In this document: positions 14,063 through 45,074 of the stretch, in pieces
How positions within the stretch are numbered: position 1 is the first letter of the stretch
Layout: each line of letters opens with the position of its first letter
Program-made: the position numbers and the translations under genes
The notes under the pieces: model-generated
The model's input: the letters and a program-made list of their open reading frames with translations, nothing else
Told to the model about the DNA's origin: nothing
The model's database searches: none
NCBI RefSeq assembly: GCF_964019385.1
Contig: NC_088654.1
Location: 13,404,200 to 13,468,199, forward strand
DNA: 64,000 nucleotides
Source: Sycon ciliatum
Lineage: Eukaryota; Porifera; Calcarea; Leucosolenida; Sycettidae
Direction of reading: 5' to 3'

Positions 14063-14129
14063 TAGAGTTTCCGTTGGTTGACCAGAGGCTATTTGCTTTC
14101 TGCGATAGCCATCTTTGTCCGTATTGCCC

Positions 14130-14280: not shown

Positions 14281-14857
14281 TATTAGGTTCTCACTCTTCA
14301 CACAGAGTCTTTCCTCTTTCCCTTTCCCTCATGGTGCGTGATGTGCGCCTTGATACTGAGACCATTGGTCGGGGAAGCGCACTTTACCTCACCGGCACAG
14401 CTCAAAAGCACCTACACGTCCTTTGTAGTCCCCTATGTTCTCTCGATGTTGTTTTTGTTTTTCTGTTCCATTTTATGTAGGCAAGTGCACTTTCATAAAA
14501 AAAATAAAAAACTATTTAAAGAGTCGGCGTGGAGAAAGCAAATTTATTAATGCAATAAAGTGTATACTAGATGCAGACCTGGGAAGACAACAATTTAATG
14601 GAATTTTAAAGGATTTTTTTCTTATTCAAAATCGAGTTTCGTGTTCCGCTCATCAGTGAATAGTATCGGAACTGAGGGTACTGTCTACAACAAAGAACAT
14701 TTGATAACAGCATAATGAAAAGTGTGAACAAGAAAGGAAGTGCTACAGCATTACATTATAGGTGTCAAACATAGTGCTAACATATATAACTGAGTGCAGG
14801 CACAAAACGTGAGGCGATACAGTGCGCCATGACACGACATTTACATCTGATAACCAG

Positions 14858-15235: not shown

Positions 15236-15618
15236 GTCTCAATCATCTCCACCAGCATCACAAGTCGTTTGACCACTGCTCGGCGTCACCGTTGCTGTGT
15301 TCTCTACTACTACACACCCATTTCCACTGTCCATTTTGCGTGGGCCAAGTTCATTCCGTGCGAAAATTTCAAGTGAATAGTTAGCTGTGCTTCTTCTGGG
15401 TCTATGGGTAAGGATATTGGTTTCATTTTGGTTTGTCGATGATCTCCCTCTCTGTCCAGACACAGTCGGCACCGTGGATCCCAGCACCGGGGGAGACCGC
15501 CGTCTCGGTAGTCACCAAAGGTAAAGGGGGTGGCTCAGGCGGAGGCAAGGGCAACTGCCGAGGTGAGGGTTCAGTGTCTCTCGGTGGCCCTCCTCCATTC
15601 CAGGACGATGATGTTGTG

Positions 15619-15890
15619 CTAGAGTAGGCTCCGCTGCTGTTCGCCGTGGGTAAAGAAGTGGTGGCCAGGTGTCACTGATGGCAAAGCCACCGCAGCTCCA
15701 GCCACCCACATTCCCCCAGGTGGTGGGGCCGGTGGTGGCACGGGAACAGGCGGCGCTGTCGGCACAGCGTGTTTGTCTACTGAGCTAACTGGGTTCTTAC
15801 ACGGCCTACCACGCTTTGGCCGCTTTGCTCTGGCTGCTGGTGGTAATGAGTGCAACGGCACATGTTGGCTGATACGTTCGTTCAGGTGTT
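15619..15890 (-). pseudogene. AT-hook / proline-rich segment in foldback centre
   Basis: The minus strand reads RAKRPKRGRPCKNP, a good AT-hook core, followed by a proline/alanine-rich run (VPVPPPAPPPGG). AT-hooks bind AT-rich minor grooves. Copy A has two extra bases near 15670 relative to copy B, which shifts the frame and ends it early. It is the likely 5' part of the gene whose 3' part is in the left arm. Confidence 0.55.
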
Positions 15891-16362
15891 TAAAATGTAT
15901 GCACGGAACGGACTTGGCCCACGCAAAATGGACAGTGGTAATGGGTGTGTTGTAGCAGAGAACCCAGCAACGGTGACGCCCAGCAGCGGTCAAACGACTT
16001 GTGAGGCTGGTGGAGATGATGGAGCCATGTTGGAGGCTGATAAGGAGTGCAATGAGACTGAGCATCAAACGGATGATGAGGAAGTGACTGATCATGATGA
16101 TGGTGGTGATGAGGACGATAATGATAAAGATGAAACGGAGGATGAGGATGAGGCGGAGGAGGTTGAAGGAAAGGAGCGGGATGAGACGGGAGAGAGCGAC
16201 GTGAGCAAAAAGTCAGCTGTATTTTGTCACTTGTTATCACGTCCAGATTGTCTTAGTGTAAACGATGATTCTCACTTTTCTGTTTTGTGCCGTGAAAATT
16301 ATGTTAAGCAGTTGAAGGTTCTGGAAGCTGTATGTATTCGTGTGCATAATCCTGTTCTTTGA
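15850..16362 (+). CDS. Acidic / GIY-YIG-tail ORF, right arm of foldback A
   Basis: A 170-aa frame that reads without a shift through GLGPRKMDSGNGCVVAENP, an acidic run rich in DDE, and the tail SAVFCHLLSRPDC, DDSHFSVLCR, LEAVCIRVHNPVL. It stops at TGA just before the CKQKKH block that the left arm still encodes, so the right arm is truncated at the C-terminus while the left arm is frameshifted at the N-side. Each arm preserves what the other has lost. Confidence 0.55.
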   Translation: MQRHMLADTFVQVFKMYARNGLGPRKMDSGNGCVVAENPATVTPSSGQTTCEAGGDDGAMLEADKECNETEHQTDDEEVTDHDDGGDEDDNDKDETEDEDEAEEVEGKERDETGESDVSKKSAVFCHLLSRPDCLSVNDDSHFSVLCRENYVKQLKVLEAVCIRVHNPVL

Positions 16363-16936: not shown

Positions 16937-19143
16937 CGAGAAAGTCGATTTTGGCTCACCTGGAAGGTGAGCCAGAACCCCCTCCTCCTATACTACTGAC
17001 ATGTATCGTTATGTATGTCTGACGGATATGTTCTTGAACTGGCATATCAGTATCACCAAGATTACGGTTCTTCCGTCTACGCATCCCTTCTTGGCTTATG
17101 CATTGGTTGAAAAGAAATAAAAAATAATGATACAGAATTACTTGTGTCCAAGTGTCGTCATGAAAACAAGTTCTACCTCCGTTACTTTGTCCGCAAGGTC
17201 ACGTGAATCTAGCTGGTATTCCCGCTGCCAATTTGTGTGTGTGTTTGTGTGAGTGCGTGTGTGCGTGTGTGCGTGTGTGTGCGTGTGTGTGTGAGTAAGT
17301 GTGCGCGTGCATGTGTGAGTGTGTGTGTGTTTGTGTGCATGCGTGAGAAAGAGAGTGCGTGTGTGTGTGAGAGAGAGAATGAGTGTGTGTATGTGTGTGT
17401 GTGTGTGCGCGCGTGTGCGCGTGTGTGGATGTGTGTGTGTGTGTGTGTGTGTGTTTGTGTGCGTGTATGTGAGAAAAGGGACGGAGTGTGGGTGTGTAAT
17501 GGTGTGAGCATGTGTGGATTTGGCATTTAAGTCCCCATCTTTATTCTATATCATTCACGCTGAAACTGCTGCTGCATAGCCCCAAGTCTGAAGACTTGGC
17601 AACTTCACGCCTGCACCCTACTCTTGCGCTATGATACACGTCGCCTATGATACCCCTCAGAATTCCCCATCTTACTCCCCCTTATGTTCAGGCTGCCTGT
17701 TTTGGAGCCATCAGTTGCCTGACGATCGTAGTAATACGTGAAACTCAGAGTTGTGACAAAGCTTCCAATCTCTCTTGTAATACAGAAATACCTATATTCT
17801 GCCTGTGACTACTCACAGAGAAAGAATGGTCGCAACTGTACATTCCGCATATAACTGTTCGCTTTGAATTATAGTGGTCACAACTGTATTCTGTGACCGC
17901 TCAAAGGGAATTATAGTTTCCAAAAAAATCCTGCAGTACGAAGCACTTCGCGAGCAGTCACGAACTGTGTGCTTTACACATGTACATGTATGGTGATTTG
18001 TGAGTGGTCATGGGGCATTGTGACTGGTAAACTAATTTGTGACTGGTCATGGGGAGTTTGTAACTGTTTGACTGGTCACGGGGACCGTGATTGGTCATGG
18101 GGCCTTGACTGGTCACTGAGTCCTACATATACCCACAAGCAGTCGTACCACAGGTAAGGAATCGAACATAGACGATAGTCATCAGTAAAGGGTGACGGGA
18201 AAATTCTATTTTCTGTTGTGGGAATCTGAACATTTTGAACTAGAGGCTGGTGTCACTGCGATGGTACTTTCGATTCGCTGAGATCAGTGAGGCGTTGCAG
18301 CCTGAACATTTCTCGCGCTTATAGCCAATAACTCACCATTGTTTTACCTGAGATGGGGTGAGAATGACTTTGTTGAACAAGCTGCAGCGCTTGGAGAAAC
18401 ATCGAGGGGTCACCAAACTAATCCAAGCAAGAGCGATACAATTTATCGCTCTTACATCCATGCAAGGAATGCTGAGTAACTCAGTACCTGCAGTGTAGAC
18501 TCTGCGTGTGCACTATTCTGTACAGTGTAGTGCTAGTGATGCACGTGCAGGTACTGTACCAGTGATGCTGAAAACCAGTGCGAGCTCGACGTGATAGCAC
18601 ACTTACCTGAGCGAGCAGTGACCACACAGCTGCAATAAATGGGCATCGCACAGCTTAAAAATAGTTCATTTCAAGATCGAGGTGATTCCCCCGACGGTAA
18701 TCAACCGACCTCGCAACGATCGTGTATTCTTACTGCGTTGTTGGTGAAGTAGAAATCATTCAGAGCTAGCAGACCACAAGCATAATGGCTCTTGTCGAGT
18801 GGAGAAAATCAATGCGTTTGAGATGAGGCGCGACCAACTTACGACCTTCCTGGAAAATAAGCCGGACGATATTTTTCCGTCCATTGACATCAACGACGGC
18901 GATGCCTTCATCTCCGTGTGAAACTCTCAGACCAACTGTCCTGGAACGTTAGCCTAGACTTCAGACTATCATCCTGTGTGATAAGTGTTGTATGATTTAG
19001 CTTACGGAGTTGTCAGTAACAAGTGACAAGTCACTAGTCAAACTGCGACAATTTCTATGACGCTAGAGAAGTAGTTTGAACGGTACTCACATTGATGCGG
19101 CTTTTTCGTGTACTTGCAAGTAGTAGAAGATACCTGGTAGCTA
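16937..19143. other. Unique spacer between copies A and B
   Basis: No gene could be supported. It contains a 21-bp near-palindrome (GGCTCACCT..AGGTGAGCC, about 16955), a 280-bp GT/GC-rich simple repeat (17235-17515) and degenerate units of TGACTGGTCATGGGG (about 17995-18120). From about 19070 it is homologous to the left part of copy C (41460 onward), so the ancestral unit began left of the gypsy insertion site. Confidence 0.65.
17235..17515. repeat. GT-rich alternating purine-pyrimidine repeat
   Basis: TGTGTG, TGCGTG and GAGAGAG tracts over about 280 bp, potentially Z-DNA forming. No gene overlaps it. Confidence 0.9.
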
Positions 19144-19717
19144 CCAAAGCTACAATGGTATAAGCAAATCTGCTATTTATATATCCACGAAGGCATGGGG
19201 CAAAGACGCATCTCTTCCAGCATCGTTTGCGATAAATATTCAGATTAACGTTAGCAGGCCAAATTTAGCAAGTTAGCAATTTAGCAATTTAGCAAGTTAG
19301 CAGGCCAAGCGATTGCTGTTAACTTTTGCATGTGATGCTTCAACTAAAGTCTTGAAGGGGCCTGTTGCGTTAGAGTACGACTTGGACTTGGTTTTCTCGC
19401 GAATCATCTATTTTCAATAGCTATGCATTTTCCACGAGTACTAGATGACAGAAGGTGATCTCCACGCCATTTTCAGTGCACTCAATGGAGACTCTTCGCA
19501 TGAGAGAAAAAGTTTTTAAAATAGAGCATGAAGTTGCGGCAATTCTCCTACAAAATGACGGTCAAAGAGGTAACTGCAATATATTTGTTTTCTTGTGATG
19601 AACGAGATTTCCGACGGTTTGCAGATTTTGTTGAATGATCGATTCTGGATACCGACTCTGCTTCTGGATACCACCTGTGAATCTGGAATTGGCTGCCGTT
19701 CAAATCGCCTAAGGAAA

Positions 19718-20296
19718 ATGGAGTATCCCGATCCTGACCTTGTAGGTATTACGATACTTGGCTTCATTAACCATCATGATGCCTACGTCAATGATCCCAA
19801 TTTAGGCTTAAATGACCCAAATTTATTCGTAATGGGAGATAGGGAACCAGCCATTCCTTACAATTGGGGTCCGCCGCTGTTTATGGCAAATAAATCATTT
19901 GTTATCCAAATTCACTCTCCTAACCAATTCTACTTCCATCGTACATCTACTATGGAAGATCTCCTCAAGTTCATCCGCGACGATGTGATGCGTCAATTTG
20001 TCTTGGAATGTGATGTCTTCACGTTTGCGTCGGAAGAAAACCATCAAGAGACGGATCACACGGTTCTTCGGCTCAACTTCAAGGCATTCCTTTCTGACCA
20101 TCGACGTGAACTCGCGTTCAACTGGTTCTCCAATTTTTCATTAGTGTGGAACCGAAATGAGGACGGTACGCTGATATTCTCTGTGGAGTCGGTGCATATA
20201 GTTATATTGCTACCTTGCTCTGTTCAGCAACGACCAAGATCTGTTACTTATCGTGTGACTCAGCACCCAACTGTCAGAATACCTGATGAGAACTGA
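19718..20296 (+). CDS. Unrecognised MEYP ORF family, copy B1
   Basis: The best-preserved long-type member: 192 aa from ATG 19718, ending VRIPDEN. It lacks the frameshift that breaks A1 and continues SVESVHIVILLPCSVQQRPRS and YRVTQHPTV. The frame stays open upstream to an ATG at 19595, adding about 41 residues (LNDRFWIPTLLLDTTCESG and so on). The same upstream peptide is readable in copy C but closed in A1, A2 and B2, so either the start moved or the upstream part is ancestral coding. I prefer ATG 19718 because it is the only start kept in all five copies. Confidence 0.68.
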   Translation: MEYPDPDLVGITILGFINHHDAYVNDPNLGLNDPNLFVMGDREPAIPYNWGPPLFMANKSFVIQIHSPNQFYFHRTSTMEDLLKFIRDDVMRQFVLECDVFTFASEENHQETDHTVLRLNFKAFLSDHRRELAFNWFSNFSLVWNRNEDGTLIFSVESVHIVILLPCSVQQRPRSVTYRVTQHPTVRIPDEN

Positions 20297-20678
20297 ACGA
20301 GTTTCAATTGGTTGACCAGACGCCATTTGCTTTCTACGATAACCACCTTTGGAACGGAGTACAAGACGGAATAAGGAGCAAGCGAGAAGCAATCAGGCAC
20401 GCAGAGAGATTCAAGTATCAAGTGCTGTAACCTGAATATTGACAGAAACAAGAAAACAAGAAGGCATTGTTCAAATTATGACAAATGGCAACCAGAACAG
20501 TATCCTCATCCACCACTATAGCTGAAATCAGCCAAAAGACTTGTACCAGATATGGTCACGACAAGGAGAGTAATAGCCGATAGGTATTAAAAAACAATGT
20601 TTTGAACAAACGGCGAGGAGACAATTTGAGTACAGCAATCGATAAGAACAAGAGACCATTACCCCAAGGCCCAAGAGG

Positions 20679-20894
20679 GTGCAACTGGGTACATGGGGGT
20701 CGCGCGGCGAAATTCCACCATTACGTCAAAAATGATGTACACGTTCGCTGCGCTTGTATTGTTCCTTGGTTCCAAGCACCACGTGTTGCCGAGTTGTGTA
20801 CAGATGCGCCTCAGCCACATGACGTAGTGTTGGAATTCTGCCGCGCAGTGCGCCTACAGCAGCCAGACCCCATTTTGCCCACTCTTGCACTAGC
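20679..20894. mobile_element. Small palindromic MITE, copy B
   Basis: Counterpart of 2710-2925, with one substitution in the GCGCGGCG arm (GAAATTCCA). Confidence 0.55.
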
Positions 20895-20909
20895 TGAATC
20901 CACATTTGC

Positions 20910-20990
20910 TACACTTTATTCCGACACTTAAAACGTGATTTCTTACCCTGAAAGTACGTTTTCATTACCGTAGTGTCGGAATAAAGTGTA
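20910..20990. repeat. 3' hairpin downstream of MEYP ORF, copy B
   Basis: TACACTTTATTCCGACAC pairs with the complement ending at 20990. Two bases just outside the left stem differ from copy A; the stem itself is unchanged. Confidence 0.65.
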
Positions 20991-21317
20991 ACCAAATGTC
21001 TATTCAGCTTGTCTTATTGATTTCGGCTATCAACTAGGTTGGGGTTTGGATTTGAAAATCTTTATTTTACATATGCTTTTTGTATTTATGAATTTTTCTC
21101 CATTTGTGTTTTTAAAGCATTTTAATCCATTGTGTTAAAAAAGGAGTAGCAGCCATTTAAATGCGCAATACTAGAAGTGAGGCATTGTACTCACATGACA
21201 GTTGCAAAGTACCACTTCACGACTGCCGGCATATCTAAAAGAAGTCCTTTGAATCTAAGCCTGTTGTGAATTTTTCTTCCTCACCAAACAATCAGAAAAT
21301 TAAACATACCTAAGTTT

Positions 21318-21688
21318 AGAAGAGAAAAGGACATATGGATACGAGTTAAGAGTAACTCTCCATCACTGTAACATGATACTTTATATAGTCAGAAAGTGCA
21401 ATAACTAGGCACAAAACTAACAGAGTACTGAAACATTCGACGTCCTGACACCTAGCTTCAACACATCTCCGTAGCGCTAACCGACAGCCTTCCAACTTGG
21501 AAGGTTCAAGGTTATGTAAAGACCAAAGAGGGGAAGGCCATGTGTTGAAGCTAGGTGTCAGGACGTCGAATGTTTCAGTACTCTGTCAGTTTTGTGCCTA
21601 GTTATTGCACTTTCTGACTGTATAAAGTATAATGTTACAGTGATGGAGAGTTACTCTAAACTCGTATCCATATGTCCTTTTCTCTTCT
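21318..21688. mobile_element. Foldback element with 149-bp arms, copy B
   Basis: Arms 21318-21466 and 21540-21688; same flanking 12-bp direct repeat as in copy A. Confidence 0.8.
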
Positions 21689-22130
21689 ACATTTATTTAT
21701 GGCTCAACATCCTAGTTTCATATACCTAAGTTTCATTTATTTTTTTCACTTTCCCGTACACGAATACGCTAGTCTATGTTGTATTCTCCCCCTTCTCCCC
21801 CCCCCCCCCCTACATGCAGTCAATGCCACCAAAGCATCTACATTTCTAAATGGTGAAACATATAAAAATACTAGCAGAAGGAAGATCTCGTCACTGTAAA
21901 AGTGTGTGAAATGTGCTTTTCTTCAGGTGGTTTCTCCGATAACGTTGGCTGCATTCAAACATGGCTGGTGGCCAATGGAAGACAGTGTCCCATAGATTAA
22001 TTAACATTGAGCAGACGATTTGCTGCATGCGTATACACTGTAAAACCGGAAAGTCTGACGACCAAAAAGTTTCACGTATTTTTATTATAATTGGTTTAAC
22101 GATGGCTAGCATATTCCGCCGAGACTAGTC

Positions 22131-22634
22131 ATGGCCGCGACACCAGATGTCGACTACATCAAACCCAGGAGAGGAACACAGCCCAAACAGAAGGCTCTGG
22201 CAACAGCCCGGACAAAGCCAACTATCGCCGCTTCAACCATCATACAGCATGTCGGCTCCAAGAAGTTGCACACAACAACCAGGGCTCGCAGCAGTACTGG
22301 CCTACCACAACAGCGCCAAGTTGCACGGACACCGACCGCGAGCCCATCGGATCAGGTAGCGCAGACTAACCCTATGCCGAGCAAGCGTGAACCCAACCAG
22401 CGTGATTCACACAACCCGTCAGCTGTGAAAAATGATTCTGCTATAAATACAGATCTTATCATGTCCTCTTTTTGCCTGAAGGCAGTATGTAAGAAGGTTC
22501 CAGAGCACTTCAAGATTCACGCGCCAGCGCGCAGCAAATGTCACCTAGATGTGCTAGAGGCTGTTCACATTGCCAAGCTTCTGCCTGAGCTGTGTAGACA
22601 GAAGAACCTTGTTAGGAAGCTAGTGCTATTTTGA
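22131..22634 (+). CDS. AT-hook-like / GIY-YIG-tail ORF, copy B (intact frame)
   Basis: A 167-aa uninterrupted frame from ATG to TGA. The N-terminal half is basic, Ala/Thr/Pro-rich and low complexity, with a decayed AT-hook (KPRRGTQPKQK; copy A reads RIGRPPK there). The C-terminal half has ARSKCHLDVLEAVHIAKLLP, ELCRQKN and VRKLVLF, the tail pattern shared with the foldback ORFs. No nuclease catalytic motif is visible. Copy A has two stops in the same frame, so the pair allows a test of constraint. Possibly a nuclear DNA-binding fragment (inference). Confidence 0.55.
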   Translation: MAATPDVDYIKPRRGTQPKQKALATARTKPTIAASTIIQHVGSKKLHTTTRARSSTGLPQQRQVARTPTASPSDQVAQTNPMPSKREPNQRDSHNPSAVKNDSAINTDLIMSSFCLKAVCKKVPEHFKIHAPARSKCHLDVLEAVHIAKLLPELCRQKNLVRKLVLF

Positions 22635-23104
22635 CTTCCCACCTCCCTGTTATAGTGCGCTAACTCTTTGGCGCAACTCACACTATCATTCAACCTGTGT
22701 TTTTTTCATCACAATTTTTCCGCCAATATGCTGTATAAATTGACATCATTGTGCTTTTTTTAATATTTAATTATTTAACTCAACTCGTGGTCCATTACCA
22801 ATTGGCACGCAAAGTACGAGACAGGGGTAATAGCCAAACACGGCCAGGAAAGAAAAAAAGAAAGGGATGAAGAAAAAGAGAAGAAAGAAGGATAGTCAAG
22901 AATCCAGCAAGGAGATCCTATCGTACTATCGTACTATCTTAATACATTATGCGATTAGAGTAGGGTCCTGCGAATTCTGCCGGCAGAAAAATTGCCAGAA
23001 TTTGGTACCTTTTCTGGTAAGTTTCATGCATGTTTGGCATGTGGATGAAGAAATCGAGCAGAATTCGAGAAATTGCCCGCCATAAGGTTTGTATGGGTCT
23101 TCCA

Positions 23105-26100
23105 AATTTCACTGATTGTCGAGCAGAATCTGCCATCTTTTCGAGCAGAATCCGCGGTCCCTAAATTGGAGTGCATTTTTAAAGCTGGAAAGACATTTTG
23201 ATATGCTGAAGAAGTTGCACCCAAAAACTGTAGTACAAAAACAGAGGATAGTTGGTAAATGCGGCTGAATTAGCACGAGGAAGTGAGAAACTATTACGAG
23301 TGGACCGGGACAGAGAAAAACAATTATTGAATACGGAGATATGAATGGGAATTTTACCTAGGCAAATTCTGTGGATCAGAATGAAAAGCTGCTGTTCGCG
23401 ATTATTTTGCAGTGGCTGAGTATTGCTGATACAATAGAGCTCAAGACTAGGAAATAAAGGCTTCTTTGTGTACCAGCCCCATCTCGAACCGTTACGTACG
23501 TTACGGTTCGACGCACCGCACTGCGCCGCGCCGTTCGGCGGCTTTCTTGCTCCGATCGACTCACTTTTTTGCGCTGGGCAGCTGAGATCCCACTGCAAAT
23601 TTTGATGTATGATGTGGGTAGGTTGCCATTTGAAATTATGGAGAACGATCGCGGCGAAAAGTGCGCTTTGCAATTTCAGCGCTCTGCGATATATTTTAGC
23701 AATTTCGATCGTGTTTTCGTTCGGTTACGCTGCTTGTATCTGGAATATAGCTTGCTCTAGCTGTTGTCGATGTCTACTAGTGATAGTGAACGCCAGGAGA
23801 GAGTTGTAGTAGCGATATAATCTCAGGATCTGAATCGAAAATGAGAATTTCCACCGCTGAAGCCATTGCCGTATTCGCTCTCCAAGCAGCAGCGAGAGGG
23901 AGCGCAGCGATGGCCGGAAATAATCAAGGCAGGTGAATTTCCCCACCCATCGACTATTCCTGGTCTTCTCAATCGCCAATACCCTCGCTGGACGCAAGTA
24001 GATAAGTGAAAAGTACATATTCAAATCTGACACAATTTCAATAATTTAAAATTTTGATGCAATTGTTTGGCATCTGGTATTCACGCAATATTCACGCAAT
24101 ATGGCTCTTTTCCGTCCTTTCGCTATTGTTGAAGCATGCAACTGGCGGCTATACACTAGTGCAGTGGTCTCCTGTTGCTCTGTGTGAAGAGGGGCAATGT
24201 CAGCAAGTATATTCACGATTCCGAGTACACGAATCTAAATTGTCAGAAATATGGACAATTGACTCAGAAATAGGTATTCCAGGTATGGCCTGTATCTGTA
24301 GTTGTGTGCTCGGTCAAAATATGTTCTGACTTGGACACATTGATACCAACAGATTCAGAAAAACATAACTTGCGCCTACAAAATGTGTCTTAGTTTTATG
24401 CTAAAGGTCCATCATTACCGATGAGTACCCCGCGCATACATTAGATGCCTGGTACACAAAGGACACAGCAATATGTTAAGAAGAGATTTATGTTGCATTT
24501 CAATATTGTTCACAAGATGCTCATTTAGACTACACCAAGACTGACAAGACTGACATGCATGCTGGAAAATAGCTAATAGATACGAGCGATAAAACATAGA
24601 ACGGCATATATTCGGCAGATCAGAACGATGAGGATATAGTATGCCGAACCACTGGTAGTTTTCTTGCAAATATAGTCTACATGTGGAGCCCATCATATAA
24701 TTATACCAAGGTACTTATGTTCCTGGACAATTTCTATGGTCGCTGAGCTGCCAGGACATGGTAAAGGACATGGTAAAGACACATTACAGAACTGATCACT
24801 AGCACCGCTACAGAACAACATAACTTTAGTCATACCAGTGTTCGGTCTCAGCTTCCAAGTCTACATCTAGTAAATGGTGGAGTTGATCTCTTTCTGGAGG
24901 TCATCAACTAGCAATTGCCTGCAACTACTTGAAGTGGAAACTGTGGTGTCATCGGCGAACAGTGAAACGTTAGGGACAAACATCGGTAGATCGTTGACGT
25001 ACACTAAAAAGAATACTGGCCCCAGGATTGACCTCTGTGGCACACCAGAATTAATTGGCTGGGGAGAGGGTGTTGCCGACGCGTACAGCCTGTAACCTGC
25101 CAGTTAAGTAGCTTTCAAAGACACAACACAATTTGCAACCAATGCCATAGGCACCCGACTTGGCAATCAGGCATATATGCCAAAAGGTGTCAAAGGCTTT
25201 CGCCAGGTCAAAGACGCACATGCCAGTATGTTCTTTCAAATGGAGGGACTGCATGATGTTTCGGATTAAGTGGACTAGGTGCAGAGCTGTGGATTCTCCT
25301 CGCTGGAAACCAGACTGCATAGTATGGAAGTACGGGGACAAGTGTCGATATAGCTGATCGTACACAATGCGCTCAAACAGCTTTGAAATAAAAGACATTA
25401 GGGTGATGGGTATGCAGTTCGTTGCACCCAACCGGCAGCCTTTGCGCTTATAAATTGGGACTAATGCATATTTCCAAGAGGAAGGAAAGATTCCAGACGA
25501 CAAAGAGATGTTAAAGAGCAGCGATAACGGATATGCTAGGCTGTCTTGGAGGTGTTTCAGAATTTCGTTTGGTATACCATCGTAACCAGGATACTTCTTA
25601 TCGGGGAGACTGCGTATGTATCTGGTTACAGTACGGGATTAAATCGTCAGCGATGTAAACGTTGACTCTACAGGTATTTGGTGGATAGCAGGAACTAACC
25701 ATTCAGGTTTATCCTCGACGCAGAAGCTGGTAAACTGCTCATTCAGAGCCTCCGCAATATCAAGAGGCCGAGTGGCGGGACTTTCGTCAGACCGTGTGAT
25801 TGCTGTTGGACTAGAGCCCAATGACGATGCTGATTTACGAAGAGTTATCATAAATGAGTGAATTGATGGACGCTGGCTGTCGGTGAGAGAAGTAGTAATG
25901 GACTGGACGTATTCTTTATGGGCTATACGTGATAAAGCTTTTGCTATAATCCGCTGGCGTCTGTACTGCGTTGCATTTTTTGGGGGTAGGGTGTTTTTGT
26001 AGATGCTGTAGAGGTCATGCTTTCTCTTAATGCCTGCCCTGAGCACTGGTGTCATCCACGGTGGATCCTGGCGTGAAGAGCGGCTTCGGTTTCTGGTGGA

Positions 26101-26705
26101 TGACTGGTGATCGCGGTGAGAAGAGCAGACTGAGAGGGACGATTCGAGGACAGACGAGAAGTTTGACACGGCTGTATCAATATCAAGGCCGCATAAGAGG
26201 TCACACCAGTGAGTTGCGACAATTTCAGCGTTGACGCTTTCTCATTGCGATTGAGTGAGCAAGTGATGGCTGGAGCGAAGCTTTGCAGTGTCATATGTGG
26301 ACTCTCGAAACTTGTCATGTCTTTAGTAACGGAGAGCCTGCCGAGGACGATTACATGATCAGAGGCACAAAGGGGGCTCAGGGATTCAATGGATGTGAAC
26401 TTTTTTTTGAATGTTTGTGGCGACCAGTTCCAGGCAGCCACGGGGCCCATTGGTTGTAAGATGGGTGGGGAACGCAACAAGTTGAGACAGAGCTATGTAG
26501 CGAAAAGGGTTGCACAACGTCAAGGCAGAGCCTGCAGCAGATGTTGAGTTGGAGGCACACCAGATTTTGCAATGGGAATTAAAATCACCAGTTGCAATGG
26601 TAGATGATGGAGCAGGCAGCTTAATGACAGCAGTCCGCGAAGTGTCTACAAAATATTGTAGGTCAGCAGAGTGCTGGTTAGGGGGTCTATACAAACAGGC
26701 AAACG
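23105..26705 (-). pseudogene. Degenerate CR1/jockey-like LINE, copy B, split by an insertion
   Basis: Same element as at 5130-7725: endonuclease (26386-26694, TGDFNSHCKIW), an SDHVIVLG motif readable at 26052-26480, RT N-terminal region (25639-26169), RT palm (25051-25503, FDLAKAFDT), FADDTT block near 24950. The C-terminal part is interrupted at 23465-24460 by a TIR insertion absent from copy A. Confidence 0.88.
23465..24460. mobile_element. 1-kb TIR insertion private to copy B
   Basis: Bounded by perfect 12-bp inverted ends TTTGTGTACCAG / CTGGTACACAAA. Copy A shows the nearly empty site (GGCTTCTTGTTAAACAATATG), although about 8 bp at the junction differ, so the target duplication is not clean. 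No transposase motif was found inside; short open frames have no recognisable domains. Likely a non-autonomous DNA transposon inserted after the duplication. Confidence 0.65.
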
Positions 26706-28305: not shown

Positions 28306-28850
28306 GTTTAACTTCGCAGATTCTGACGGACAAACTGCCCAATAACAAGAAAGCGAAGGCCAAGAAAGTAATAATAATAAAAGACATCACGGGGCAACAG
28401 AAAATGAATAATAGCTCTAGGAAGTCAGATGGTGAGGCAAGGAAAATATTTCCATTTTACAAATAATCGATTTAAAAGAAACAAAGAAAAGAGCGGGTCG
28501 TACAGTAGTCTTCCTATTCAGAATTCCCTGAACGAAACAGAGACTTAGCTGAGTACATGCAGCTATTACACAGCTGCACTGTAGCAAGACAGCTACCTCC
28601 GTCGACATCAGTGGACGTGGACTACGAATGAATGAGACATACGAGCGGATGCGACAGCAACAGTGACTGGAATAATGGCTGAAACGTTTCAAGGAACGAG
28701 CGTTTGGGGTGATGATTGACGTCTTGAACACACTGCGTTGGGGGATGGTGCGGATGTCGCTGATCAGTGCGTTCCACAGCTTGGGAGCGGCAACAGAGAA
28801 CCTAGCCAATTTTATAGTTTTCATTGATATGTTTTTTGTGGAAGTTTACT
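28306..28850 (-). pseudogene. LINE 3' end fragment, copy B
   Basis: Minus-strand FSVAAPKLWNALISDIRTIP as in copy A, followed by the same 3' UTR and the (GAC)n tail. Confidence 0.78.
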
Positions 28851-28906
28851 TATTTATGCTGTTGCCCCTAGTGTTCTCCGTCCGCGGCTGGTAGGGTTAT
28901 TTTCTT

Positions 28907-29012
28907 TAACTTTGGGTTCTTTTCATTTGCTTTGGGTTCTTTTCATATGCTTTAAGTTATTTTCACTTGCTTTGAGTTGTTGTCATTTCCTTTGAGTTGT
29001 TTACATTTTAAT
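28907..29012. repeat. ~21-bp minisatellite, copy B
   Basis: Same five degenerate CTTTGGGTTCTTTTCATTTG units as at 12858. Confidence 0.72.
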
Positions 29013-29544
29013 TTTTTTTTGGAATTTAGTTGCTTTTCTATTATTGATAAAGATGTTTTTGCCCGTAAAAAATCCGACCTATCAGACCAGCTTGAAAGCT
29101 CATAGCGTGAACTGAAAATGTTTCGCTCCAGCGCAAGTTCTACGTGGTGTGGAATTCAATTTTCACTATTCGGGTACACTCTTCTCAAGCAGGCTGGTTG
29201 ATCAGGTTGAGCACGTTGATCGTGCAAATCCACGTTTGAGTCAAGGTTGGGACCTGACCTTGTTGCACTTGTACGTTCTCAGCGCCATTTTCAGTGCAAC
29301 CCTTGGAGACGCTTTGCAAGAGTGAAAACAGTTGACTCAACGATTCTGCAAGACATAGCGTGAAGTCTCGGCTATTAACTTACAAAACGCGAGCAAAAAG
29401 GATACTGCAACATATTTGTTGTCATGTGATAGAAGAGATTTCGTGTGCAGATTTTGTGGAATGATCGATTCTGGATACCGACTCTGCAATAGGATACCAC
29501 CTGTGATTCTCGAATTGGCTGCCGTTCAAATCGCCTAGAGACAA

Positions 29545-30105
29545 ATGGAGTATCCAGGTCCTGGCTTTGTACGTGTTACGATACTTGACTTCATTAGTGA
29601 ATATGTTGCCTTCCCCTACAATGATCCCGATTTCAGCTACATTGGATATTGGGAATCAGACATTCCTTACAATTGGGGTCCGCCGCTGTTTATGGCAAAT
29701 ACATCCATTGTTATCCAGATACACACTCCTAACCAATTCTACTTCCATAGCACATCTACTGTGGAAGTTCTCCTAAAGTTCATACGTGACTATGTGGTGC
29801 GTGAATTTATCGTTGGATTAGAAAAAAACGCGTTTTTCTGGGGAGAAAACCATGAAGAGACGGATCACACAGTTCTTCGGGTCAACTTCAAAGCATTCTT
29901 TGATGAGGATGAACGTGAACTCGCGTTTGACTGGTTCTCCAATTTTTCACTAGTGTGGAACCGAAATGAGGATGGTACGATGATATTCTCTGTGGAGTCA
30001 GTGCATATTGTTATATTGCTACCTTGCACTGTTCAGCAACGACCAAGATCTGTCATGTATCGAGTGACTCTGCACCCGACAATCGGAATACCTGAGGAGA
30101 ACTGA
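29545..30105 (+). CDS. Unrecognised MEYP ORF family, copy B2
   Basis: 186 aa, intact, differing from A2 at only a few residues (MEYPGPGFVRVTIL, FYFHSTST, VGLEKN, EDERELAF, VTLHPT). Several of these changes fall in positions conserved in the other four copies (for example R to S in FHRTST), which hints at relaxed constraint in this copy. Same upstream type as A2. Confidence 0.67.
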   Translation: MEYPGPGFVRVTILDFISEYVAFPYNDPDFSYIGYWESDIPYNWGPPLFMANTSIVIQIHTPNQFYFHSTSTVEVLLKFIRDYVVREFIVGLEKNAFFWGENHEETDHTVLRVNFKAFFDEDERELAFDWFSNFSLVWNRNEDGTMIFSVESVHIVILLPCTVQQRPRSVMYRVTLHPTIGIPEEN

Positions 30106-30916
30106 TAGAGTTTCCGTTGGTTGACCAGAGGCTATTTGCTTTCTGCGATAGCCATCTTTGTCCGTATTGCCCCCTCCCCCCACCCCCCCCCCCCCCCGCT
30201 GAAAGCAACGCAGCTGTCGGTCCATTGCCATAGTTTCCAGAACCAATCTGGCACTCACTCACTCACCCTCACTCACCCTTCCCCCCTCTCTTCCTATCTC
30301 TCTATCTCTCTCTCTCTCTCTCTCCATCATTCTCTGGCTATTAGGTTCTCACTCTTCACACAGAGTCTTTCCTCTTTCCCTTTCCCTCATGGTGCGTGAT
30401 GTGCGCCTTGATACTGAGACCATTGGTCGGGGAAGCGCACTTTACCTCACCGGCACAGCTCAATAGCACCTACACGTCCTTTGTAGTCCCCTATGTTCTC
30501 TCGATGTTGTTTTTTGTTTTTCTGTTCCATTTTATGTAGGCAAGTGCACTTTCATAAAAAAAATAAAAAACTATTTAAAGAGTCGGCGTGGAGAAAGCAA
30601 ATTTATTAATGCAATAAAGTGTATACTAGATGCAGACATGGGAAGACAACAATTTCATGGAATTTTTAAGGATTTTTTTCTTATTCAAAATCGAGTTTCG
30701 TGTTCCGCTCATCAGTGAATAGTATCGGAACTGAGGGTACTGTCTACAACAAAGAACATTTGATAACAGCATAATGAAAAATGTGAACAAGAAAGGAAGT
30801 GCTACAGCATTACATTATAGGTGTCAAACATAGTGCTAACATATATAACTGAGTGCAGGCACAAAACGTGAGGCGATACAATGCGCCATGACACGACATT
30901 TACATCTGATAACCAG

Positions 30917-31294
30917 CTACGAGAACAACTTTAACGCGACTACATGCTTCTTTTGTTTACAAAGAACAGGATTATGCACACGAATACATACAGCTTCCAG
31001 AGCCCTCAACTGCTTAACATAATTTGCACGGCACAAAACAGCAAAGAGAGAATCATCGTACACACTAAGACAATCTGGACGTGATAACAAGTGACAAAAT
31101 ACAGCTGACGTTTCGCTCACGTCGCTCTCTTCCGTCTCATCCCGGTCCTTTCCTTCAACCCCCTCCGCCTCATCCTCGTCCTCTGTCTCATCTTCATCAT
31201 CATCGTCCTCATCGCCACCATCATCATCATCAGTCACTTCCTCATCATCCGTTTGATGCTCAGTCTGACTGCACTCCTTATCAGCCTCCCACAT
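30917..31294 (-). CDS. Acidic / GIY-YIG-tail ORF, left arm of foldback B
   Basis: Identical by eye at protein level to 14858-15235 of copy A (MWEADKECSQ to VVALKLFS, 125 aa). Confidence 0.52.
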   Translation of the reverse strand: MWEADKECSQTEHQTDDEEVTDDDDGGDEDDDDEDETEDEDEAEGVEGKDRDETEESDVSETSAVFCHLLSRPDCLSVYDDSLFAVLCRANYVKQLRALEAVCIRVHNPVLCKQKKHVVALKLFS

Positions 31295-31570
31295 GTCTCA
31301 ATCATCTCCACCAGCATCACAAGTCGTTTGACCACTGCTCGGCGTCACCGTTGCTGTGTTCTCTACTACTACACACCCATTTCCACTGTCCATTTTGCGT
31401 GGGCCAAGTTCATTCCGTGCGAAAATTTCAAGTGAATAGTTAGCTGTGCTTCTTCTGGGTCTATGGGTAAGGATATTGGTTTCATTTTGGTTTGTCGATG
31501 ATCTCCCTCTCTGTCCAGACACAGTCGGCACCGTGGATCCCAGCACCGGGGGAGACCGCCGTCTCGGTAG

Positions 31571-31947
31571 TCACCAAAGGTAAAGGGGGTGGCTCAGGCG
31601 GAGGCAAGGGCAACTGCCGAGGTGAGGGTTCAGTGTCTCTCGGTGGCCCTCCTCCATTCCAGGACGATGATGTTGTGCTAGAGTAGGCTCCCCTGCTGTT
31701 CGCCGTGGGTAAAGAAGTGGTGGCCAGGTCACTGATGGCAAAGCCACCGCAGCTCCAGCCACCCACATTCCCCCAGGTGGTGGGGCCGGTGGTGGCACGG
31801 GAACAGGCGGCGCTGTCGGCACAGCGTGTTTGTCTACTGAGCTAACTGGGTTCTTACACGGCCTACCACGCTTTGGCCGCTTTGCTCTGGCTGCTGGTGG
31901 TAATGAGTGCAACGGCACATGTTGGCTGATACGTTCGTTCAGGTGTT
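31571..31947 (-). CDS. AT-hook / Pro-rich ORF in foldback centre, copy B
   Basis: Minus-strand frame with RAKRPKRGRPCKNP (AT-hook) then VPVPPPAPPPGG, remaining open through about 55 further residues (PSVTWPPLLYPRR to LYLW) that copy A loses. The start is uncertain; the longer open frame upstream is antisense to the right arm and is not likely coding. Confidence 0.45.
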
Positions 31948-32419
31948 TAAAATGTATGCACGGAACGGACTTGGCCCACGCAAAATGGACAGTGGTAATG
32001 GGTGTGTTGTAGCAGAGAACCCAGCAACGGTGACGCCCAGCAGCGGTCAAACGACTTGTGAGGCTGGTGGAGATGATGGAGCCATGTTGGAGGCTGATAA
32101 GGAGTGCAATGAGACTGAGCATCAAACGGATGATGAGGAAGTGACTGATCATGATGATGGTGGTGATGAGGACGATAATGATAAAGATGAAACGGAGGAT
32201 GAGGATGAGGCGGAGGAGGTTGAAGGAAAGGAGCGGGATGAGACGGGAGAGAGCGACGTGAGCAAAAAGTCAGCTGTATTTTGTCACTTGTTATCACGTC
32301 CAGATTGTCTTAGTGTAAACGATGATTCTCACTTTTCTGTTTTGTGCCGTGAAAATTATGTTAAGCAGTTGAAGGTTCTGGAAGCTGTATGTATTCGTGT
32401 GCATAATCCTGTTCTTTGA
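31907..32419 (+). CDS. Acidic / GIY-YIG-tail ORF, right arm of foldback B
   Basis: Same 170-aa frame as 15850-16362, identical by eye at protein level, again stopping before CKQ. Confidence 0.52.
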   Translation: MQRHMLADTFVQVFKMYARNGLGPRKMDSGNGCVVAENPATVTPSSGQTTCEAGGDDGAMLEADKECNETEHQTDDEEVTDHDDGGDEDDNDKDETEDEDEAEEVEGKERDETGESDVSKKSAVFCHLLSRPDCLSVNDDSHFSVLCRENYVKQLKVLEAVCIRVHNPVL

Positions 32420-35494: not shown

Positions 35495-35644
35495 ATCATG
35501 TCCACCGGGCTGGCATATTGGCAGGAGTGTGTGGTCAATATTTCACTCAAATCCATTGAGAGACACCAAAGTTACGGTCAACTGAATATGATAGCGTCTA
35601 CCACCTTGATGACATAGGCAAAAGGCATAGGGATGTTATAAATG
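35495..35644 (-). mobile_element. SINE-like sequence, left part, split by the LTR element
   Basis: Sequence to 35644 continues at 37467 once the LTR element and one AATG are removed. The 37467 side carries a B box on the minus strand. Assignment of the left part to the same repeat is by adjacency only. Confidence 0.35.
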
Positions 35645-37466
35645 TGTAATAGGTAGCCGAGTGGTAGGCGCGGTGAAATCAACAATAATTACTTTTATTC
35701 TACTTTCAGGTACACACCTGAGATATAATCGTTCGTGAAAGAAGAAGCGGCAAAATAACTGACTTTCTCTCCGGTGCTCACCTAGAGGTTGAATCCTTCT
35801 TCTTCGAGTTACCTTTCATTGCTATCTAATCTAATCTAATATTCCTCTTCATCAAAACAGAAATGCGCAGCCGCTTTTATGCAGCAGACGCCGTACGCTT
35901 ATATGCGGAGATACAACATAAGGTCGTTCCGTATTAGTTCCGTACTGCTTCCGTATTGGTCGGGCAGGGATACTACACCCTCCCTTCCTACAGATAATCA
36001 CGCCCTCGTGATTTTCAAAAAATTAGTGAAGAGTTACGAACACAGCGTCAACCGGAAGATGGCAAATTATATCGGAAATGATAACGTTTAGAGTAGACAG
36101 AAGAAATGAACTGATAACAAATCATAAAGTAGAAGCACACCAGGTTCACACGATCTCTCGGGGTCAAAAGGGAAAGAATGGTCCTCCAAACAGGACGTGA
36201 AAGACAGCCAAATTTCTGCACATCGCGGGCTCAAACTGCCAGGAAATTCGCAATTTCAAAAAAAATGCACTGCATCGTGGGAACTAACTCCGGTACACAC
36301 CTGGAGTGTAAAAGGGGATTCTCACACACTTCTCTCACCAGGTTACTTAGGTAAACCGTGGCTCACCATGATCAGACGCCTACCAAACTAAACTGGATTC
36401 ACACACTCGCATAAAGGAAGACTGAAGAGAATAGGGAGACTGAAGGAAGACAGGAAAGAAAATGCCATACCTGGAATCAGCGTTAGTAACCACCGCGGCG
36501 GCTGGAGCTACGGCGGAGGGCAAGCCAGGTTTTATCTTCATCTTGGTTGAGCCGGTCACTCAGAGCGGCTAGCTCGGCGTCAGACAAATGACCTCCCTCC
36601 TCGTCTTGAATCATGGTCTTCACATTGTCGAGAACATCGCTTTGCGCGACGTAAAGAGTGATGGTCTAGCCAGGAATAGTGTTGACGAAAATCTGCATCC
36701 CACCACGGAGACGAAGTACCAAATGAAGAGTGGGCTCCTGCTGAACGTTGTAGTCACTCAGGGTTCAGCCGTCTGCCAACTACGCGCCGGCAAAAATCAA
36801 ACGCTGCTGGTCTTGGGGAATACCCTCCTTGTCTTGGTCAGCAGCCTGCATGTCGTCGTCCTCATCAGCTTCGCCATCACCACCGGTAGTATACATGTAG
36901 GTAGCGGGTTGCTTGGAATCGCCATCGGAGTCTCCAATGGATGCCGTGCGGAAAGAATGGTGATCCACGTTAGCACCCTGACTGTGCTGCAGGCTAATAA
37001 GCATGGCCAGGCCCAGCAAGGCAAGAAACATGATTCTCATCTTGATTCGTCGCACGGAGCTGCAGCGGGTTGAGCCATGGGGGTCTGGGGTCGAATCACG
37101 TTGTTTTATTTAAAACTACACCGCTGCCACCAATGTAATAGGTAGCCGAGTGGTAGGCGCGGTGAAATCAACAATAATTACTTTTATTCTACTTTCAGGT
37201 ACACACCTGAGATATAATCGTTCGTGAAAGAAGAAGCGGCAAAATAACTGACTTTCTCTCCGGTGCTCACCTAGAGGTTGAATCCTTCTTCTTCGAGTTA
37301 CCTTTCATTGCTATCTAATCTAATCTAATATTCCTCTTCATCAAAACAGAAATGCGCAGCCGCTTTTATGCAGCAGACGCCGTACGCTTATATGCGGAGA
37401 TACAACATAAGGTCGTTCCGTATTAGTTCCGTACTGCTTCCGTATTGGTCGGGCAGGGATACTACA
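35645..37466 (-). mobile_element. Non-autonomous LTR retrotransposon with captured ubiquitin-like ORF, copy 1
   Basis: Two 333-bp LTRs (35645-35977, 37134-37466) bound 1156 bp and are flanked by AATG on both sides. Orientation is minus: a PBS-like TTGGTGGCAGCGG (complement of 37119-37133) abuts the 5' LTR, a polypurine tract (complement of 35978-35989) abuts the 3' LTR, and AATAAA lies in the LTR (complement of 35694-35699). There is no gag, protease, RT or integrase, so it needs a helper, probably a Ty3/gypsy relative judging by the 4-bp target duplication. The only long coding region is the ubiquitin-like ORF at 36483-37040. Confidence 0.95.
36483..37040 (-). pseudogene. Secretory ubiquitin-fusion ORF in LTR element, copy 1
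   Basis: Read from ATG 37040: a signal peptide (MRIMFLALLGLAMLISLQHSQG), an acidic linker ([10 protein letters not shown]), then the second half of ubiquitin ([31 protein letters not shown]) joined to the first half of the next repeat ([25 protein letters not shown]), and a non-ubiquitin tail ([19 protein letters not shown], ending RRGGY). The order is that of a piece cut out of register from a polyubiquitin gene. Three in-frame stops (two around the LADG block, one after NTIPG) kill this copy. Residues at ubiquitin K6 and K11 are not lysine. The starting codon was chosen because the upstream ATG at 37079 stops after 13 codons. Confidence 0.85.
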
Positions 37467-37640
37467 AATGTTTCATTTCTCCTATATTTTTACCTAGACG
37501 ACCTAGGATTTGAACCCGGACTATCGCAGTGCATGCATTTCCCCAATGCACTTCGCATACGTACTAATTCTTCCAAGTTGCTTCATGTTATGATCTTGCA
37601 TTTGAAAGCCCTATTTGAACATTGTGGCTAGCTGTATTTG
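37467..37640 (-). mobile_element. tRNA-derived SINE head (target of LTR element 1)
   Basis: On the minus strand the B box GGGTTCAAATCC (complement of 37506-37517) lies in a tRNA-like context. The A box is weak. The LTR element is inserted just beside it. Confidence 0.5.
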
Positions 37641-41455: not shown

Positions 41456-42086
41456 CCTAACTTAGTATGAATGGTAAACACATTGTTGCGGGTTGTTCGT
41501 GTGCTTGCAAGTAGTAGAATATACCTGGCAACTACCAAAGCTACAATGGTATAGTAATATCTGCAATTCAAACACTCAAAGAGGCATGGGGCAGCGATAT
41601 ATCTCTTCCAGCATCGTTTGCGATAAAAACTCAGATTAGTAGGCCAACTTTAGAACGCTGATGCCTAGCGATTGCTGTCACCTTTTGCATGTGATGCTTC
41701 AACTAAAGTCTTGAAGGGGCCTATTGCTTTAGAAGACGGCTTTGACTTGGTTTTCTCCCGAATCATTTATTTTCCATGGCTCTGCATTTTCCGCGAGTGC
41801 TAGGTGACAAAAGGTGATCTCAGCGCCATTTTCAGTGCAACCCATGGAGAGCCTGCGCAAGAGTGAAAACAGTTGACTCAAAACTTCTGCGAGATATACC
41901 GTGAAGTTTGCGGCAATTCTCTCACAAAACGTGAGCTAAAAAGGTAACTGCAATCTATTTGTTGCCTTGTGATGGAAGAGACTTCGTGTCCAGATTTTGT
42001 GGAATGATCGATTCTGGATACCAGCTCTGCATTTGGATACCACCTGTGAATCTCGAATCGGCTGCCGTTCAGATCGCATAAGACAA

Positions 42087-42629
42087 ATGGAGTATCCAGC
42101 GCCTGACCTTGTAGGTGAAGCGATACTTGACTTCGTTTATCAACATCAATCCTTCCTCTTCAATGATCCCAATTTCAACTTAATAGGAGCTAGGCCATCA
42201 GCCATTCCTTTCGATTGGGGTCCGCCGCTTTTTGTGGCAAATATATCCATTGTTATCCAGATTCACACTATTAACCGATTCTACTTCCTTCGTACATCTA
42301 CTGCGGAATCTCTCCTCAGGTTCATACGTTACGATGTGATGGATCACTTTAAGTTGAAATATGAAGACTTCACGTTTGCATCGGGCGAAAATCATCAAGA
42401 GACGGATCACACGGTTCTGCGGCTCAACTTCAAGGCATTCTTTCGTGACAATCGACGTGAACTCGCGTTTAACTGGTTCTCCATTTTTTCACTAGTGTGG
42501 AACCGAAATGAAGACGGTACGATGAGATTCTCTGTGGAGTCGGTGCATATAGTTATATTGCTACCTTGCACTGTTCAGCAACGACCAAGATCTGTTACTT
42601 ATCGTGTGACTCGGCACCCGACTGTCTGA
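42087..42629 (+). CDS. Unrecognised MEYP ORF family, copy C
   Basis: 180 aa from ATG 42087: MEYPAPDLVG, FDWGPPLFVANIS, INRFYFLRTST, ETDHTVLRLNFKAF, ELAFNWFSIFSLVWN, SVESVHIVILLPCTVQ. It ends HPTV; an AGA-to-TGA change removes about 7 C-terminal residues present in B1. Amino-acid divergence from the others is substantial, yet the frame is intact, which is the best hint in the window that the family was under selection. The frame is also open upstream to 41997 (NDRFWIPALHLDTTCESR), as in B1. Confidence 0.68.
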   Translation: MEYPAPDLVGEAILDFVYQHQSFLFNDPNFNLIGARPSAIPFDWGPPLFVANISIVIQIHTINRFYFLRTSTAESLLRFIRYDVMDHFKLKYEDFTFASGENHQETDHTVLRLNFKAFFRDNRRELAFNWFSIFSLVWNRNEDGTMRFSVESVHIVILLPCTVQQRPRSVTYRVTRHPTV

Positions 42630-43355: not shown

Positions 43356-45074
43356 TGTAATGGGTAGCCGAGTGGTAGGCGCGGTGAAATCAACAAGAAT
43401 TACTTTTATTCTACTTCTTTCAGGTACACACCTCAGATATAATTATTAGTGAAAGAAGAAACGGCAAAATAACTGACTTTCTCTCCGGTGCACACCTGGA
43501 GGTGGAATAGCTCGTTATTATCAAAATCTCATCTTCATCAAAACAGAAATGCGCAGCCGCTTTTATGCAGCAGACGCCGTACGCTTACATACGGAGATAC
43601 ACTAAATATACATCAGGCAAAGCTCCGTATTAGTTCAGTACTACTTCCGTATTGGTCGGGCAGGGATACTACACCCTCCCTTCCTACAGATAATCACGCC
43701 CTCGTGATTTTCGAAAAAAATAGTGAAGAGTTATGATGAACACAGCGTCAACCGGAAGATGGCAAATTATATCGGAAATGATAACGTTTAGAGTAGACAG
43801 AAGAAATGAACTGATAACAAATCATAAAGTAGAAGCACACCAGGTTCACACGATCTCACGGGGTCAAAAGGGGAAAGAACTGTCCTCCAAATAGGACCTG
43901 AAAAACCACAGCACTCTTGCTGCACAACGCTGGCACAACCCGCCAGGAACATCGCAGGTCAAAAACCGAACTGAATACACTATACCTATAAGGAGCGTTG
44001 TCACACACATTGTCCCACGTTAGCTGGGTAAGCCGTGGCTCACCATGATCAGACGCCTACCAAACTAAACTGGATTCACACACTCGCATAAAGGAAGACT
44101 GAAAAGAACAGGGAGACTGAAGGAAGAGAGGAAAGAAAATGCCATACCTCGAATCAGCGTTAGTAACCACGGCGACGGCTGAAGCTACGGCCGAGGCCAA
44201 GCCAGGTTTTATCTTCATCTTGGTTGAGCCGGTCACTCAGAGCGGCTAGCTCGGCGTCAGACAAATGACCTCCCTCCTCGTCTTGAATCGTGGTCTTCAC
44301 ATTGTCGATAGCATTGCTTTGCGCGACGTAAAGAGTGATGGTATAGCCAGGAAGAGTGTTGACGAAAATCTGCATCCCACCACGGAGGCGAAGTACCAAA
44401 TGAAGAGTGGGCTCCTGCTTCGGCCTGCGTGCCGGCGAAAATCAAACGCGCCTGGTCTTGGGTACCAGCCTGCCTGTTGTCGTCCTCATCAGCTTCGCCA
44501 TCACCACCGGTAGTATACATGTAGGTAGCGGGTCGCTTGGAATCCCCATCGGAGTCTCCAGTGGATGCCATGCGGAGGGAAGGTGATGCACGCTAGCACC
44601 CTGGCTGTGCTGCAAGCTAATAAGCAGGGCCAGGCCCAGGAAGGCAAGAAACATGATTCTCATATTGATTCGTCGCAGGGAGCTGCAGCGGGTTGAGCCA
44701 TGGGGGTCTGGGGTCGAATCACGTTGTTTTATTTAAAACTACACCGCTGCCACCAATGTAATGGGTAGCCGAGTGGTAGGCGCGGTGAAATCAACAAGAA
44801 TTACTTTTATTCTACTTCTTTCAGGTACACACCTCAGATATAATTATTATTGAAAGAAGAAACGGCAAAATAACTGACTTTCTCTCCGGTGCACACCTGG
44901 AGGTGGAATAGCTCGTTATTATCAAAATCTCATCTTCATCAAAACAGAAATGCGCAGCCGCTTTTATGCAGCAGACGCCGTACGCTTACATACGGAGATA
45001 CACTAAATATACATCAGGCAAAGCTCCGTATTAGTTCCGTACTACTTCCGTATTGGTCGGGCAGGGATACTACA
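43356..45074 (-). mobile_element. Non-autonomous LTR retrotransposon with ubiquitin-like ORF, copy 2
   Basis: LTRs of 318 bp (43356-43673 and 44757-45074) flanked by CTCG on both sides. PBS (complement of 44741-44756) and PPT (complement of 43674-43685) are as in copy 1. The uninterrupted target is visible in copies A (3220-3240) and B as GGCATTGTACTCACATGACA, confirming insertion and the 4-bp duplication. Confidence 0.95.
44160..44663 (-). pseudogene. Secretory ubiquitin-fusion ORF in LTR element, copy 2
   Basis: Signal peptide MRIMFLAFLGLALLISLQ intact from ATG 44663. A one-base deletion shortly after (near 44585) shifts the frame; the acidic linker and QARLIFAG follow in the second frame; a 32-bp deletion relative to copy 1 removes the DGRTLSDYN part and shifts again; then [31 protein letters not shown] and the [19 protein letters not shown] tail read in the third frame. 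Copy 1's in-frame stop after the TLPG-like block is absent here (GYT), so the two copies carry independent lesions. Confidence 0.85.

Follow-up and report, generated by a model that had tools for sequence, protein, structure and literature searches.

In maize, the LTR element Bs1 carries intron-free pieces of cellular genes that have been joined into a chimeric gene. Ubiquitin-coding host sequence has been acquired by another kind of replicating element, the cytopathogenic pestiviruses, which took up a piece of host RNA by template switching. Gene pieces are also carried by TRIM elements of soybean and Medicago, which their source compares with maize Bs1 and lists at 1,172-1,449 bp, most with two or more copies (PMC4717578). 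By definition TRIM elements are under 1000 bp, with repeats of 100-250 bp (PMC6934838). Among the titles and abstract beginnings listed by searches of one literature collection, none concerned a ubiquitin-carrying LTR retrotransposon.

Here we describe an LTR element from the calcareous sponge Sycon ciliatum that carries a circularly permuted piece of ubiquitin. It lies in a stretch of 64,000 nucleotides (contig NC_088654.1, positions 13,404,200 to 13,468,199), hereafter the window, to which all coordinates refer unless a locus or contig is named. At a probability of about 80%, we conclude that a non-autonomous LTR family acquired exactly one unit of a host polyubiquitin gene, which we refer to as the C1 gene, and that this cargo is mainly a passenger.

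A complete LTR element with a ubiquitin-containing coding region

The window contains a real and exactly placed complete LTR element of 1,822 bp, copy 1, whose sense is the minus strand (Table 1). Its two LTRs are identical at 333 of 333 nucleotides and have TG...CA termini, its 14-nt primer binding site (PBS) equals the 3' end plus CCA of tRNA-Leu(UAG), a polypurine tract (PPT) adjoins the 3' LTR, and an AATG target-site duplication is present on both flanks, so that the boundaries and structural features assigned to it by the sequence-only reading are borne out. We examined two genomic genes for the tRNA that matches the PBS, and ARAGORN identified both as tRNA-Leu with anticodon TAG. A Pfam scan of six ORFs in copy 1, including one at 36780-37055 on the minus strand, found no gag or pol and returned only a weak ubiquitin match. 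With two TG...CA LTRs, a PBS, a PPT, a target-site duplication and no gag or pol in the six scanned ORFs, the element is a non-autonomous LTR retrotransposon.

The coding region of this element consists of a signal-peptide-like start, an acidic linker, two pieces of ubiquitin and a tail. The two pieces stand in the order second half then first half, as had been noticed from the letters, and we could place them as ubiquitin residues 31-76 followed by residues 1-35 of the next unit. The sequence-only reading had described a single coding ORF; its domain layout is confirmed, but the copy 1 coding region is not an open frame, because three in-frame stops (one TGA and two TAG) leave only the first 86 codons open. 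The last of these stops, a TAG at the position of ubiquitin residue 11, is common to 66 of 70 copies that we compared. When scored against the Pfam Ubiquitin profile (PF00240; cut-off 25.4 bits), a family member (P0001) reached 57.2 bits over profile positions 29-72 only, and the first open piece of copy 1 reached 16.8 bits, which is below the cut-off. The ubiquitin slice differs from a functional ubiquitin in its permuted order, in the TAG inside it and in the change of six of its eight lysine codons.

Table 1. Features of copy 1 and of related elements in the window.
Feature	Position	Strand	Remarks
Complete non-autonomous LTR element (copy 1)	35645..37466	-	1,822 bp
Target-site duplication AATG, copy 1	35641-35644 and 37467-37470		4 bp, both flanks
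5' LTR	37134..37466	-	333 nt, identical to 3' LTR
Primer binding site (PBS)	37119..37132	-	14 nt; 3' end + CCA of tRNA-Leu(TAG)
Coding region	37040-36486	-	Signal-peptide-like start, acidic linker, ubiquitin 31-76, ubiquitin 1-35, tail
Signal-peptide-like start (residues 1-22)	36975..37040	-	Judged by eye
Acidic linker (residues 23-68)	36837..36974	-	No relatives found outside the element family
Ubiquitin residues 31-76 (residues 69-114 of the reading)	36699..36836	-	
Ubiquitin residues 1-35 of next unit (residues 115-149)	36594..36698	-	
Tail (residues 150-185)	36486..36593	-	No known relatives; followed by TAA at 36485-36483
In-frame stops, copy 1	TAG 36782-36780, TGA 36767-36765, TAG 36668-36666	-	
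Polypurine tract GGAAGGGAGGG	35978..35988	-	11 positions adjoining 3' LTR
3' LTR	35645..35977	-	333 nt
Second full copy, same family	43356-45074	-	Duplication CTCG; cargo frame-shifted
Solo LTR, same family	62121-62461	-	84% identical; duplication TCTG

Other repeats are present in the window. Five copies of one stretch, 65-99% alike (1760-2136, 13496-13872, 19730-20106, 29539-29915 and 42081-42457), overlap ORFs of about 190-240 aa, and the one such ORF that we scanned had no Pfam match and no database relative at E <= 0.001. Large direct duplications pair 1173-7636 with 19143-26615 and 12502-15970 with 28545-32027, at spacings near 16.0, 18.0 and 19.0 kb, with listed pieces that are 94-100% identical. 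The first 810 nucleotides (1-810) encode a retroviral-type integrase core (PF00665) and are part of another retroelement.

One cargo is found with two types of LTR

We searched the 538-Mb assembly (313 contigs) for copies of the ORF and of the LTR. The X-masked protein query gave at least 151 ORF matches (best 150 of 1,021 candidates scored), showing that the ORF is present in other members of the family, and the LTR gave at least 41 matches (best 40 of 1,421 first-look candidates scored). Seventy loci (L009-L078) were drawn from the ORF match list, which is ranked by protein score; this sample and the LTR-based sample described below are both ranked lists and therefore non-random. Self-comparison revealed a flanking repeat pair in 66 of the 70 loci. 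When 13 loci (the four without a pair and nine with odd pairs) were compared with both LTR types, all 13 contained LTR sequence, and LTR sequence of one of the two types is thus found at 70 of 70 ORF loci, although at L071 it is only a 97-nt piece at the locus edge, 1.1 kb from the internal part. Among the 57 clean LTR pairs at these loci, an exact 4-bp duplication flanks the TGTA...ACA termini in 44 and is absent in 13; two loci without it (L037 and L040) have 5-bp duplications instead.

By manual labelling, type A is the LTR type of the window element and type B is found at 12 of the 70 loci. The LTRs of the two types have only short similar stretches in common. Type B differs from type A in its LTR ends and polypurine tract but has the primer-site core and the cargo, roughly 1.05 kb long, in common with it; the tract GGAAGGGAGGG precedes the 3' LTR in most type A loci. 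The mean cargo distance was 0.0424 within type A (54 loci, L009 left out), 0.0301 within type B (12 loci) and 0.0422 between the types, and on a midpoint-rooted cargo tree of 67 of the 70 loci the type B loci fell into seven groups rather than one clade, with support of 0.77 or less. Since the distance between types equals that within type A and type B is scattered over the tree, either the cargo moved between LTR types or the LTRs did.

The divergence of LTR pairs indicates that part of the family is young, as 15 of the 57 clean pairs are identical and 33 are identical at 99% or more of positions. Copy 1 has identical LTRs, yet its cargo differs by a mean of 5.4% from other type A copies, and we therefore assign it to a distinct lineage. 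At one locus (L011, near position 1034), TTAGGG repeats adjoin a copy of the element.

The 3' ends of both LTR types resemble antisense tRNA-Leu, the element's own primer, but they resemble differing parts of the tRNA. In type A the likeness is to the antisense 5' part (about 35650-35671 and 37139-37160 in copy 1). Among 1000 simple letter shuffles none was as good for type A and 3-4 were as good for type B, in a comparison whose loci include L022 and L030. It is possible that these ends were reconstructed from the primer tRNA, or that they provide a second tRNA contact, by analogy with the bipartite primer sites of Ty1 and Ty3 (PMC5371799).

The cargo contains one unit of the C1 polyubiquitin gene

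Searching the genome for members of the ubiquitin family, we identified two polyubiquitin genes, the C1 and C4 genes. The ubiquitin slice aligns without gaps over 242 nt to the C1 gene where unit 2 meets unit 3, with an identity of 86.8% for copy 1, 88.8% for L038 and L012 and 88.4% for L022, the four copies that this comparison took in. The other junctions of the C1 gene are 83-87% identical to the slice, and the C4 gene reaches at most 77.0% over the whole slice and 79.7% over one 138-nt part. We also weighed whether the ubiquitin likeness or the LTR structure could be a product of chance or of mis-assembly, and give this virtually no credence: it is refuted by the many separate genomic places at which the element is found, by the exact duplications at 44 of 57 clean pairs and by the match of the copy 1 slice to the C1 gene (E = 4e-83).

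The slice begins in unit 2, at ubiquitin residue 31, and stops in unit 3, in residue 35. Its two ends fall on the same 14-mer (CAAGACAAGGAGGG in the host sequence), a motif of the host repeat that occurs again one unit further on. The element has gained a single 228-bp unit, in frame and circularly permuted. The element thus contains, as a Bs1-like transducing element does, an intron-free piece of an identified host gene, although the lack of introns in the captured piece says little, since the five units of the C1 gene lie in one open frame. About 9 kb from this gene, a host open frame (L099, G000:C1:3152000-3152700) encodes two ubiquitin-like domains in tandem.

These data agree with the earlier proposal that host sequence was captured by an LTR element, one in which we found no gag-pol, and was then spread; the donor of its ubiquitin part is the C1 gene, and the spread is reflected in the ORF matches described above. 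We propose that a growing strand would have joined the polyubiquitin sequence at the 14-mer in unit 2 and left it at the same motif in unit 3. With entry and exit one unit apart, 228 bp would have been inserted in frame, producing a circularly permuted ubiquitin; the recurrence of the 14-mer one unit later would explain why one unit was taken, why the frame was kept and why the order is permuted. Reverse transcriptase probably made these jumps between co-packaged RNAs, and gag-pol proteins were presumably supplied in trans by a separate element. That the 14-mer occurs at each joint points to template switching guided by homology. Primer sites repeated in the 320 nt upstream of the ORF (7 of 70 loci) and longer antisense tRNA-Leu stretches past the primer site (L012:2152-2231 and L039:1947-2026) suggest that template jumping has occurred in this family. 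The 14-mer at both joints would also fit recombination at the DNA level.

A different history would place the permutation in the host genome and not in reverse transcription: the host may already have possessed a gene for a secreted protein that included a permuted ubiquitin unit, and the transcript of this ready-made fusion would then have been captured by the element. The cargo is in frame over both joints and has a signal-peptide-like start, as in a selected host gene, and a repeated 14-bp motif can also mediate DNA recombination. However, all 70 examined ORF loci contain LTR sequence (at L071 the edge piece only), and among them we found no LTR-free locus with the same fusion. A protein database search with the signal peptide and linker (43 candidates, 36 matches at E <= 1) found no relatives outside the family; in all 36 matching proteins, as judged by eye from their letters, this part is followed by the same ubiquitin sequence, with or without a frameshift. 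The same database contained no homologue of the tail at E <= 10 (20 candidates), and a whole-genome search (best 150 of 552 candidates scored) found no donor gene for it; of two tail matches with unusually long frames, one proved to be a copy of the element and the other a fragment. The secretory donor gene that the sequence-only reading proposed to look for was not found in any of these searches. Viral contigs contained no relative and phage records no match. As only the best 150 of 1,021 and the best 150 of 552 candidates were scored, a diverged or intron-split donor could be missed. On balance we regard a ready-made host fusion as unlikely, and favor capture of a single C1 unit by the element itself.

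The protein frame has decayed in many copies

To follow the state of the frame among copies, we used two samples. Among the 70 ORF-ranked loci, TAG is present at residue 125 of the reading in 66 and a stop is present at residue 87 in seven, but this sample favors intact frames because it was ranked by protein score. The LTR-based sample consists of 16 elements with both LTRs in the LTR match list (12 new ones and L009, L017, L042 and L047) and is confined to close relatives of the window LTR. The frame is intact from the first codon to the TAG in three of these 16 elements (L017, L042 and L047); the other 13, which are the 12 new elements and the window copy, have a broken frame. Several of the LTR-sampled elements have one common frame-shifting deletion in the ubiquitin part, and the TAG is present in all 12 newly added elements.

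We compared nonsynonymous and synonymous variation among 67 copies, using shifted reading frames as controls. The pN/pS ratio was 0.61 before the TAG (shifted frames 0.69 and 0.79) and 0.85 after it (shifted frames 0.72 and 0.62). For individual parts, each with few sites, it was 0.26 for the signal peptide (shifted 0.31 and 1.95), 0.93 for the linker, 0.85 for the first ubiquitin part, 1.89 for ubiquitin after the TAG (shifted 0.25 and 0.47) and 0.60 for the tail (shifted 1.32 and 0.77). Measured against these controls, pN/pS gave no clear signal of protein-level constraint over the whole ORF. From these data we conclude that most of the LTR-sampled copies do not keep the protein frame and that substitution is near-neutral.

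In just one of the 70 ORF-ranked copies does another stop follow the TAG, and for this reason we considered programmed readthrough of the TAG. Since these copies had been ranked by their ORF scores and pN/pS downstream of the TAG is 0.85, recent common descent is enough to account for this observation.

The host gene and the family differ in the slice by 15 codons changed in meaning and 10 changed silently, and five of the 10 silent changes equal codons of other host units. Meaning was altered in six of the eight lysine codons and in nine of the 73 remaining codons (p = 3.5e-4, Fisher test), and copies differ among themselves at one of those six lysine codons. When 27 neutral changes were simulated with the mutation spectrum of the family, at least six lysine codons were lost with P = 0.004, and the 15 changed codons are below the neutral mean of 18.9 (P = 0.058). 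On the stem leading to the family there was thus an excess loss of lysine codons that a pure passenger would not need, which we grade only as a hint because the test was picked after the data had been seen.

This loss of lysines is one reason to ask if the cargo functions, or once functioned, as a protein: a secreted ubiquitin relative, poor in lysine, that aids the element or changes the host. Many ORF-ranked copies are open as far as the TAG, and many of the listed proteins keep the Leu-Arg-Leu-Arg-Gly-Gly end. We nevertheless consider a working cargo improbable, given the near-neutral substitution, the TAG in 66 of 70 copies, the recurrence of a lineage with a frame-shifting deletion, the post hoc choice of the lysine test and the fact that 10 of 25 changed codons are synonymous, five of which match other host units. 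A version set further back in time, in which a secreted, circularly permuted and lysine-stripped ubiquitin worked before amplification, had been shaped by selection against lysines and served either the element or, outside the cytosol, the host, its later copies having decayed, appears improbable as well. The functional secreted cargo raised by the sequence-only reading is thus not supported, as the frame is broken in copy 1, the TAG is widespread, substitution is near-neutral and 13 of 16 LTR-sampled elements lack an intact frame. Gene capture is clearly recorded at this locus, whereas a new protein is not proven.

Comparison with known systems

The closest precedents for the Sycon element are maize Bs1 and the gene-carrying TRIM elements of plants. 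Like Bs1, it is an LTR element that carries a piece of a cellular gene in a chimera. Unlike Bs1, it contains one polyubiquitin unit in permuted form, joined on either side at a motif that every unit repeats, and it belongs to a family of more than 100 scored copies in which two LTR types have a common cargo. The ubiquitin insertions of pestiviruses differ in that they are found in an RNA virus, whereas the Sycon case is a genomic retroelement with a decaying frame.

For this one captured piece, the sequence reveals which gene donated it, precisely which repeat unit was taken and what motif lies at each joint, and the outcome is a clean in-frame permutation of one unit. The case illustrates how a mobile element can obtain a complete, permuted domain from a host gene built of tandem repeats, and that a cargo of this kind can be passed from one LTR type to another.

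The soybean and Medicago TRIM elements (PMC4717578) are, like the Sycon element, small and flanked by an LTR at each end, show target duplications and carry fragments of host genes. The Sycon element differs from them in its larger size and its mostly 4-bp rather than 5-bp duplications, and the word "ubiquitin" is absent from the text of PMC4717578. Its length of 1,822 bp and its 333-bp LTRs exceed the size limits of a TRIM. It shares with the bivalve biv-TRIM the character of a short non-autonomous LTR element; biv-TRIM has no clear primer site, in contrast to the Sycon element, which is 1.8 kb long with a clear tRNA-Leu primer site and a host cargo (PMC6934838). According to the same source, there are few reports of TRIM elements in animals, and the Sycon element, as an animal case, adds to this short list.
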